Assembly: GCA_018675425.1 (NCBI GenBank)
Contig: JABGYD010000032.1
Coordinates: forward strand, 1-51,268
DNA from: Kordiimonadaceae bacterium
Lineage (GTDB): Bacteria > Pseudomonadota > Alphaproteobacteria > Sphingomonadales > Emcibacteraceae
Length of the DNA stretch: 51,268 bases
Reading direction: 5' to 3'
Of the stretch, positions 44,425 to 47,057 are shown one piece after another; positions within the stretch are counted from its first letter, which is position 1; every line of letters begins with the position of its first letter. The position numbers and the translations under genes were made by a program. Under the pieces are notes generated by a model, which did no database searches, had not been told where the DNA came from, and worked only from the letters and a program-made list of their open reading frames with translations.

Positions 44425-45123
44425 CTACCTTGGCTTTCTCTGAAATGTTAGATATGTACTTTTTCGTCCCACAGCAAGTGCTTTTTTCTCATAACGTGTT
44501 TGCGGCCAATCCGCAGACCTTTTATGCCACTCATCTGGGTGACTGTCATTCCAATTAAAATTAATGTCCTCCATTAGTCGCGCAAGGATCCAACGACAAT
44601 AGTCATGGTGGTCCGTTCCAATGCGCAGCTGAGCACCATCTTTAAGAATTTCTGCTAAAATAGTCAGGTTCCCTGCGCTCACAATACGGCGCTTATAATG
44701 TCTTTTTTTACGCCAAGGGTCAGGGAAAAGTATAAATGCTCGGGACACGGATTGCTTCTTCGTCGCATCCATCAGAAGTCGAGCATCGTCCATAAAAAAT
44801 CGAATATTTGTAACATTGTCCCTTACCATGTGGTCAACTAATCCTGAGACGCCATTGATAAACGGTTCACAGCCAATGAACCCTACGTCCGGATTTGCCT
44901 TGGCTTGGCTGATCAGGTGCTCGCCTTTACCAAAACCTATTTCTAGCCAAACCTCCCTTGGATTATATCCAAATAGCTTTGTGTAATCAACTTGACCGCC
45001 CTCAAGAGAAATAGAATATTTAGGAAAATACTCACGCAGACGCGCCTCACTTGTTTTTGTCAATGGCTTAGTAAGGCGCCGACCATAGACCCGGCTACCT
45101 TGAATATTTTCTAAATCTTTCAT
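44425..45123 (-). CDS. trmB: tRNA (guanine-N7-)-methyltransferase
   Basis: 232 aa from the ATG at 45123 (AAGGGG SD 9 nt upstream); a TTG at 45144 would add seven residues. SAM-binding EVWLEIGFGKGEHLISQA, then the diagnostic FILFPDPWRKKRHYKRRIV, then LRIGTDHHDYCRWIL. It makes m7G46 in tRNA. Follows metK by 38 bp in the same direction, so the SAM supplier and a SAM user share a transcript. Confidence 0.96.
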   Translation of the reverse strand: MKDLENIQGSRVYGRRLTKPLTKTSEARLREYFPKYSISLEGGQVDYTKLFGYNPREVWLEIGFGKGEHLISQAKANPDVGFIGCEPFINGVSGLVDHMVRDNVTNIRFFMDDARLLMDATKKQSVSRAFILFPDPWRKKRHYKRRIVSAGNLTILAEILKDGAQLRIGTDHHDYCRWILARLMEDINFNWNDSHPDEWHKRSADWPQTRYEKKALAVGRKSTYLTFQRKPR

Positions 45124-45161
45124 AGAGGCAGACCCCTTTTTCAAGAACCTATTGGTATATA

Positions 45162-46328
45162 TTAGAATTCATTTTTAAGCACATCGACCAAATCTATTTT
45201 TTCCCAAGAAAACCCGCCATCTTCTTCTGGATCTCTGCCAAAATGACCATAGGCAGCCGTTCTTTCATAAATTGGTCTACTAAGACCAAGATGTTCACGA
45301 ATACCCCGGGGGCTCAAATCCATCACCTCCGAAAGTATCACCTCAAGTTTTGCGGGATCTACATGGCCCGTTTGATGAAAATCAACATAGAGGGAAAGGG
45401 GTTTTGAAACGCCAATAGCGTAAGCAAGCTGAATAGTACACCTATCGGCAAGCCCCGCTGCTACAACATTTTTTGCCAAATATCTTGTGGCATAAGCTGC
45501 TGAACGATCGACCTTTGTTGGGTCTTTCCCGGAAAAGGCTCCTCCACCATGCTGGGCCGCCCCCCCGTAAGTATCGACAATTATTTTACGACCCGTCAAG
45601 CCCGAGTCTCCGTCCGGGCCTCCAATAATAAACTGGCCTGTTGGGTTAATATAAAGTTCGTCCGCAGATGGCATCCAACCCTCTGGTAAAATATTTTCAA
45701 TGTGGGGAAGCACAATTTCCCTTACCCTTTCCTGGCTGGTATTTGGGCTATGCTGCGTGGAAACCACAACTGACGTCGCCCTAACTGGCTTTCCTTTTAT
45801 ATATTCTAGAGTAACTTGGCTCTTTGAATCTGGTCCGAGCTCTTTCATTGTGCTTTTATGACGCTCCCCTGCCATTGATTTTAAAATTTTATGTGAGAAA
45901 TCGAGGGTTGCAGGCATCAGACTTTGTGTTTCATTAGTAGCATAACCAAACATAATTCCTTGATCTCCTGCACCCTCATCCTTATTACCCGAGGCATCAA
46001 CACCCATAGCAATGTCGCCTGATTGACCATGAACATGAACCTTAACGTTCATGTTTTTCCAGTGAAAACCATCCTGTTCATAGCCAATCTTCCTAACAGC
46101 GTCCCTCGCCGCCTGCTCCATCACTTCTTTCGTAATGCTTTCTGGCCCTCGTACTTCCCCAGCAAGAACTACTCTATTCGTAGTTGTGAGTGTTTCTACG
46201 GCAACGCGAGATACTGGGTCTGCCTCGAGAAACTTATCTACAATCGCATCTGAAATACGATCAGCAACTTTATCTGGATGTCCTTCAGACACAGATTCAC
46301 TGGTAAATAAATAACTATCTCTAATCAA
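45162..46328 (-). CDS. metK: S-adenosylmethionine synthetase
   Basis: 388 aa from a TTG at 46328. AAGGA lies 8 nt upstream of it and the product then begins [20 protein letters not shown], the family N-terminus; extension to 46406 adds 26 unrelated residues. Motifs: [10 protein letters not shown] (ATP), [33 protein letters not shown], and [20 protein letters not shown]. It makes SAM from methionine and ATP. A 22-bp perfect palindrome lies 45 bp upstream of the TTG. The rare start codon may limit translation. Confidence 0.96.
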
Positions 46329-46372
46329 AGCTCTATTCCTTAATAATGATTTAATAAATCGTTGACAATTCA

Positions 46373-46394
46373 TATATAAAGAATTCTTTATATA
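46373..46394. promoter_or_regulatory. 22-bp perfect palindrome upstream of metK, candidate operator
   Basis: Two 11-bp arms, TATATAAAGAA and TTCTTTATATA, meet at an EcoRI-like GAATTC centre. A TATATA that could be the metK -10 lies inside it on the minus strand. It resembles, from memory only, the AT-rich palindromes of ArsR-family SAM/SAH-responsive regulators (SahR/SamR). Confidence 0.55.
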
Positions 46395-46462
46395 ACAATA
46401 CCACAAATATACTGATTAAAACCGAAAATCAACTTTTATTTACCTAGTAATGAGCAAAAATT

Positions 46463-46702
46463 TTATTCTCTATGAATTGCCTTTTTTAATTTGAAGTCAA
46501 AAGAAGCCTCTAACTTCACCCTCGGTATTAAATCATAATTGGAGTCACAGAGCCGAATCATTTTTATTCCCTCAGACAGTTTGCAATTCCCAACAGACAC
46601 TGTTGATCTCATTGGATTTCCCATTACATGGGCTAGAACAACCGGCTCTTCAGCAGTCATGTGACAATTCCAGATAAACGGAAAACTACCAACCTTAAAC
46701 AA
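46463..46702 (-). CDS. Hypothetical open frame downstream of the Rieske gene (doubtful)
   Basis: 79 aa. It would begin with a TTG at 46702 that overlaps the Rieske stop, after GGAAATATAATA. An internal ATG (MTAEEPVVLAHVMGNP) is an alternative. No family, signal peptide or membrane helix is recognised. Without it, 46407-46694 would be empty, which slightly favours a real gene or a decayed remnant. Low confidence. Confidence 0.35.
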   Translation of the reverse strand: MFKVGSFPFIWNCHMTAEEPVVLAHVMGNPMRSTVSVGNCKLSEGIKMIRLCDSNYDLIPRVKLEASFDFKLKKAIHRE

Positions 46703-47057
46703 TTATTATATTTCCACTTTTTATCATAATATCAAATTTTTCTAACGATGCCCCATTGCAAGGACCCGCGACACAAAAGCCGTCATCTAACTGAAACAAT
46801 GCTCCGTGAGTGTGGCACATTAAATAGGTGCCACTTTTTTCCATAAATTGTCCCAACTCCATATTAAGTGGCGCTCCTGTGTGTGGACATGCGTTATTAT
46901 AAGCAAAAACGTCATCCCCTTTTCTTTGTAGAAAAATATTATAGATTTCATCGCCTGCGCTATAGGAAAGCTCTTTGGCTGACCCGTCGTCTATATCTTC
47001 TAACTTGCATAAAGTTACCCCTGAGACCAAACCAAAAAATATTTTTCTATGATCCAT
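46695..47057 (-). CDS. Rieske [2Fe-2S] ferredoxin-like protein
   Basis: 120 aa from the ATG at 47057 (AGGA SD 8 nt upstream); upstream in-frame extension overlaps yciI and is discarded. The cluster ligands are CPHTGAPL (C-x-H) and CHTHGALF (C-x2-H), spaced about 35 residues, with a following GFCVAGPCNGASLEKFDI. It lacks a signal or membrane anchor, so it is a soluble Rieske ferredoxin. The electron partner is unknown. It starts 5 bp after yciI. Confidence 0.9.
   Translation of the reverse strand: MDHRKIFFGLVSGVTLCKLEDIDDGSAKELSYSAGDEIYNIFLQRKGDDVFAYNNACPHTGAPLNMELGQFMEKSGTYLMCHTHGALFQLDDGFCVAGPCNGASLEKFDIMIKSGNIIIV

Follow-up and report, generated by a model that had tools for sequence, protein, structure and literature searches.

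The SahR regulon was reportedly described by Novichkov et al. in 2014. According to the parts of PMC4239095 available to us, it occurs in Alpha- and Deltaproteobacteria and in some Gammaproteobacteria, has a 20-bp palindromic operator and comprises sahR, ahcY, metH, metH2, metF and metK as core targets. The same parts of this source report a second regulator, SamR, only from Xanthomonadales, with a 24-bp palindrome in which ATC-10 nt-GAT is common with the gamma-proteobacterial SahR, and no gene of the SAM cycle besides metK was found in the SamR regulons. For Ensifer aridi SahR, sites have been predicted upstream of sahR, ahcY, metH and metK and a deletion mutant supports autoregulation (PMC8877191, in the excerpt at hand), and a sahR mutant of Pseudomonas aeruginosa is also on record (PMC7950407, likewise in excerpt).

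Here we analyzed a palindrome in front of metK within a window of 51,268 bases, which is the whole stretch of DNA under study, and compared it with these systems. As in the published SahR regulon, the regulator belongs to the ArsR family, the operator is a palindrome of about 20 bp (22 bp here), and the targets sahR, metF, metH, ahcY (with a weaker site) and metK are matched, with metH being present as two ORFs here and metH and metH2 being named there (PMC4239095, available parts). We found no defining difference from the regulon as described in these parts, the likeness being one by description that does not include the letters of the alphaproteobacterial logo. The sites upstream of sahR, ahcY, metH and metK are also shared with Ensifer aridi, which differs in having bhmT as an additional predicted target, and this likeness is again one by targets and not by motif letters (PMC8877191, excerpt). 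SamR of the Xanthomonadales is likewise SahR-like and regulates methionine genes, metK among them, but its motif ATC-10 nt-GAT is absent from TATATAAAGAATTCTTTATATA, in which no ATC...GAT arrangement occurs, and in contrast to the SamR regulons as given in the available parts of PMC4239095 ahcY has sites here. As SamR is reported there only from Xanthomonadales and its motif is missing here, SahR appears to fit the locus better than SamR. A full-text search found no publication joining SahR and Kordiimonas, and this genus is not named in the parts of PMC4239095 at hand. We regard the palindrome as a real but ordinary control element and as nothing new in kind: it is the SahR regulon, here in another genus.

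The palindrome and the metK gene

The gene metK (45162..46328, minus strand) encodes a methionine adenosyltransferase of 388 aa from a TTG start, which matches NCBIfam TIGR01034 with 479.7 bits (cut-off 309.4) and shows three Pfam S-AdoMet_synt domains. The TTG start with a good Shine-Dalgarno sequence, proposed by an earlier sequence-only reading of this DNA, was borne out: the TTG is located at 46326-46328, AAGGA (46337..46341, minus strand) lies 8 nt ahead of it, and in the genus relatives the aligned start codon is TTG, GTG or ATG with a GGAG- or AGGA-like Shine-Dalgarno sequence before it. These aligned starts back the TTG and disfavour the ATG that is found in frame at 46371-46373 and shares one base with the end of the palindrome. 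Downstream of metK, and also on the minus strand, an ORF (44425..45144) follows after 17 bp. The earlier reading called it trmB; we keep this name as putative, and the ORF is probably co-transcribed with metK. Upstream of metK, at 46475-46645 (minus strand), the window carries the apparent remnant of a gene that we take to be hydrolase-like and that precedes metK in at least two relatives within the genus (L011 and L013). The tblastn comparison with this gene gave 33-39% identity over 44-57 residues with E values of 2e-5 and 2e-6 (2-kb search space), and no Pfam match was obtained for the ORF over 46475-46645.

The palindrome itself, TATATAAAGAATTCTTTATATA, occupies 46373..46394 (no strand assigned) at a distance of 44 bp from the TTG. 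It is exact, as had been read from the letters, being its own reverse complement with eleven bases per arm, 11/11 pairs and no spacer, and it is the sole spacer-free palindrome with arms of at least 9 in the window and hence the longest, the runner-up having arms of 8. The accompanying statement that this is far beyond chance stands for the local stretch, for which a model of the 190-bp AT-rich surroundings gave a probability of 0.0006 (20,000 simulations), but is overstated genome-wide. A first-order Markov model of the window gave 0.075 palindromes with arms of at least 11 per window (3 in 40 simulations and therefore a rough value), and 0.075 per 51 kb amounts to a few such palindromes per 2.2-Mb genome by chance. 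Palindromicity alone is weaker evidence than had been held and by itself not extraordinary within a 2.2-Mb genome. The decisive evidence is the conservation of the palindrome and its second copy, and also its place.

A SahR-type regulator and further copies of the site

In the 2.2-Mb genome the 22-mer has one other place with up to 3 mismatches, the copy TATATAAAGATATATTTATATA at G000:C72:33478-33499, and a reversed control pattern gave no match with up to 3 mismatches over 22 positions in the same genome. This second copy precedes the ATG of a 312-aa ORF, sahR, by 28 bp, and in this ORF an ArsR-type HTH_5 domain (PF01022, residues 18-62, 47.2 bits with a cut-off of 22) is joined to a C-terminal Methyltransf_11 domain (PF08241, residues 157-253, 83.7 bits). 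Its HTH was also the best ArsR match of the genome in an independent Pfam HTH_5 search, and the SAM-binding motifs LDVGTGTGR and GIDLS are invariant among 12 orthologues of the protein. Behind sahR and on the same strand follow metF (PF02219) and then metH, which points to a sahR-metF-metH operon. The metH gene appears split at L021:3895-7705, where two adjacent ORFs match consecutive parts of the metH models, the first one PF02574 (the homocysteine-binding part) and the second one Pterin_bind, B12-binding and Met_synt_B12.

Other ArsR-type genes were considered as regulator and rejected: three more ORFs of the genome match HTH_5 over the cut-off, and by eye a methyltransferase domain was seen in none of them, one being ArsR-like, small and stand-alone and the other two resembling different regulator families.

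A third copy was found with a looser pattern in which the three central bases are free, and which gave one further place (G000:C32:34687) in the own genome. This copy, TATATAAAGATTTCTTTATTGT, lies at G000:C57:2766-2787, and 86 bp separate its end from the ahcY match at C57:2874. Its 3 mismatches are also seen in matches of the reversed control, which number 3 and 4 in this genome and, at the looser setting, 0-6 per strand in the genus. As the control gives matches too, the ahcY site of the own genome rests on its position and its conservation. Thus both the search for an ArsR-family gene of the SahR type and the search for further copies near the methionine genes that had been suggested were successful, the copies lying upstream of sahR-metF-metH and of ahcY, and the regulator combining an ArsR HTH with a C-terminal SAM-binding methyltransferase domain.

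In the relatives, places with 2-3 mismatches were also considered as true sites. Five of them were read (G012:C35, G006:C34, G001:C1:3308545, G008:C201 and G003:C2) and showed no evident methionine gene by eye. In view of the counts of the reversed control, all of these places, and G000:C32:34687 of the own genome as well, were treated as chance.

Conservation in the genus, order and class

The metK gene was present in 13/13 genus genomes searched, the own one included. Conservation upstream of metK in relatives, on which the sequence-only reading had made its operator depend, is pronounced: the site is found in 12/12 genus loci with readable upstream DNA (own included) with 0-2 mismatches over the 19 positions compared, one locus having been left out with 14 bp of upstream DNA at a contig end (L016). 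The mean majority fraction is 0.95 in the 22 site columns and drops to 0.59 in 60 upstream and 0.49 in 38 downstream columns, and the shared core in the genus is close to ATATAAAG-N4-CTTTATAT. An orthologue of sahR occurs in 12/13 genus genomes, the one without it being 53% complete; the close orthologues in 11/12 other genus genomes show 69-76% identity, and the site is present upstream of sahR in 11/11 loci with upstream DNA (L038-L046, L048, L049; L047 with 50 bp was left out). At sahR, 10 of these 11 loci carry the identical 22-mer TATATAAATATATCTTTATATA, the centre of which is unlike that of the metK sites. For ahcY, which was found in 12/13 genus genomes, the site is present in 10/10 loci with upstream DNA with 2-4 mismatches of 19, L078 (51 bp) and L079 (54 bp) being left out. 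In G005, the genome of L079, another contig ends with a site that follows an HPr-like ORF (named by eye); this site was kept outside the counts, as were L099-L108, which apparently are genus genomes again.

The metK and sahR sites in the genus are near-perfect and near-symmetric, unlike the ahcY sites. In the latter (L068-L077) the left half is exactly TATATAAAG in 8/10 loci and otherwise nearly so, and the right half is broken in a conserved way, reading CTTTATGCT in seven, CTTTATACT in two and CTTTATTGT in one of the ten, the last being that of the window's genome.

A functionless chance palindrome in AT-rich intergenic DNA, a few of which would be expected anyway at this size in a genome of such composition, is contradicted by this conservation, as the site is kept in front of metK throughout the genus while its flanks drift. 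Such a palindrome would also have to account for the copies at regulon genes and for the sites in G+C-rich relatives described below, and we give it a practically negligible probability.

The named relatives of the regulator (25 loci) belong to MAGs labelled Emcibacteraceae, Kordiimonadaceae, Emcibacter, Kordiimonas or Alphaproteobacteria, with one labelled Sphingomonadales and one Proteobacteria. Among the 14 loci L109-L122 the site was found in 13/13 with upstream DNA with 0-2 mismatches of 19; L116 (39 bp) and L123 (partial match at a contig end) were dropped from the counts. At the level of the class, the regulator is present at an E value of 1e-40 or better in 55/115 genomes. Upstream of sahR, 25/29 non-own loci of the class show a match with up to 5 mismatches of 18 compared to 0.4% of 580 shuffles, these loci being the best-scoring 29 of 54 non-own genomes matching at 1e-40 and not a random draw. 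The four regions without a good match have 6, 6, 7 and 9 mismatches. Not all matches with 5 mismatches seem genuine either: at least that of L138, at a distance of 276 bp, looks spurious. Many of the class sahR loci have 60-69% G+C, with L145 (65% G+C) carrying TATATAAAGATATCTTTATATA, and thus the AT-rich word is not mere background.

At the level of the order we read the upstream DNA of metK in 24 non-genus loci and that of ahcY in 30, in both cases the best-scoring loci of 60 genomes and not a random draw. For metK, ten loci have a site with up to 3 mismatches of 18, a level reached by no shuffle, one has 5 mismatches, one has 6, which is within noise (8.5% of shuffles), and 12 have 7-9 and were counted as being without a site. 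In 10 of these 12 loci ahcY precedes metK in the same orientation at a distance of 18-105 bp, and a 2-mismatch site was found upstream of ahcY in each of the three of the ten in which this region was read (G178, G166 and G136). In the other two of the 12, G141 and G160, ahcY and metK are on different contigs; in G160 (66% complete) the ahcY site is present and SahR was not found in the genome. The arrangement with ahcY ahead of metK (same strand, 18-105 bp apart) occurs in 13 genomes, all from a single family of the order (f119; for example G178:C6, G166:C1 and G136:C1), and metK is without its own site in all 10 of these 13 genomes whose metK upstream DNA was read.

Upstream of ahcY, 25/30 loci of the order have a match with up to 5 mismatches, compared to 0.6% of 600 shuffles. 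The five loci without it are those of G144 and G154, which are also without SahR at 1e-40, G149 and G171, whose SahR matches are weaker (3.8e-65 and 5.0e-74), and G162, in which ahcY follows a metK copy on the same strand. When the two halves of these 25 ahcY sites are compared, the right one is worse in 15 and the left one in two, and in eight they are equal. Three metK sites of other families (L158, L160 and L161) end in CTTTATGCT too.

The ahcY sites also bear on the effector. The same ArsR-methyltransferase protein might bind this operator and sense SAM instead of SAH in a SamR-like end-product feedback, as its ligand domain is by sequence a generic SAM-dependent methyltransferase domain, the SAM-making enzyme MetK is among the targets and the effector of SamR itself is given as undetermined in the available parts of PMC4239095. 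However, ahcY, the gene of the SAH-consuming enzyme, has sites both in the genus and in the majority of the order loci read, and it is a core target of SahR, whereas the SamR regulons and the SamR motif differ from what is found here as outlined above (PMC4239095, available parts). SAM as the effector therefore seems very unlikely to us.

Putative promoter, proposed mechanism and possible graded response

Ahead of the palindrome the minus strand shows a promoter-like pair of hexamers, TTGATT (46427..46432) as a putative -35 and TATTTG (46404..46409), a weak match to the consensus, as a putative -10, with a spacer of 17 bp between them and 9 bp from the -10 to the palindrome. TTGATT is present in 10/12 genus upstream regions, and TTGATT, 17 bp and TATNNN occur together in 8/12 genus metK loci, 9-13 bp before the site, which makes this promoter-like pair the commonest in the genus. 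The aligned -10 hexamers in relatives are TATGAC, TATCAC, TATTAA and TATCTA, with TAAGAC in L006. The arrangement is absent ahead of the site in 4/12 loci (L006, L009, L012 and L015), L009 and L015 being without TTGATT and L012 having a -10 that would lie inside the palindrome. The overlap of the palindrome with a possible -10, as claimed at first, is thus borne out only in part: it would hold for this one relative, and with the shared pair the palindrome lies downstream of the -10 in the window. A consensus promoter scan did not report the shared TTGATT/TATTTG pair and gave one site only, fewer than shuffles give, and another hexamer pair in the window slightly outscores TTGATT/TATTTG by consensus, so the assignment of the metK promoter is weak. 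From the positions of the two hexamers, transcription of metK would be expected to start at about 46397, with the operator covering the start region.

Once transcribed, the palindrome can fold into a 9-bp stem, and in other Alphaproteobacteria methionine genes are under the control of SAM-sensing riboswitches (PMC4239095, available parts), which would suit a hairpin or an unknown riboswitch in the metK leader. Nothing in the window reached the gathering score of an Rfam family, though, the predicted fold of the leader is not better than that of shuffles (z 0.07), and no terminator-like site was found in 46000-46900. Moreover, the same DNA word is present at sahR and ahcY, and at ahcY promoter-like hexamers (TTGCCA- and TATAGA-like, read by eye) are located downstream of the site, which would place the site outside the transcript. 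An RNA element of this kind is extremely improbable. SAM, SAM-SAH and SAH riboswitches in the metK leader are unlikely by the same fold value and by the lack of any match of their Rfam covariance models in the window.

The palindrome is very probably the operator of SahR, an ArsR-family repressor that, bound near the expected transcription start of metK, would block initiation until relieved by SAH. The idea of a SAM/SAH-responsive repressor operator before metK, already put forward from the letters, is supported by the copies, the genus conservation and the SahR-type gene. In the model that we propose, a dimer of SahR, whose gene heads sahR-metF-metH at another place in the genome, would bind the half-sites TATATAAAG and CTTTATATA, and at metK the occupied site at the expected transcription start would prevent initiation of metK and the genes behind it. 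When SAH builds up, it would bind the methyltransferase-like C-terminal domain, which is predicted to bind SAM or SAH, and SahR would be released from the DNA. As a result metK, metF-metH, ahcY and sahR would be expressed together and SAH could be returned to methionine and SAM. The site, its copies, their conservation and the regulator gene were observed directly, and we infer the binding, dimerisation, repression, SAH as the effector and the exact promoter.

It could also be that the operators are tuned gene by gene and that this tuning is conserved, with SAH releasing ahcY first and metK and sahR later. We see this as a possibility with rather less than even prospects: the occurrence of CTTTATGCT at the three metK sites of other families counts, on its letters, against a gene-specific tuning, and the asymmetry at ahcY may simply reflect the adjacent promoter. 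If the tuning were true, the methyl cycle would have an ordered and graded response rather than a single switch, and the asymmetric ahcY sites make this graded-release model directly testable.

In summary, clean comparative evidence links metK, here in an uncultured genus of the Alphaproteobacteria, with a SAH-sensing circuit that is already known. As the order relatives that were read and are without a metK site mostly (10/12) have metK directly behind ahcY, the control of metK could there persist through operon rearrangement.
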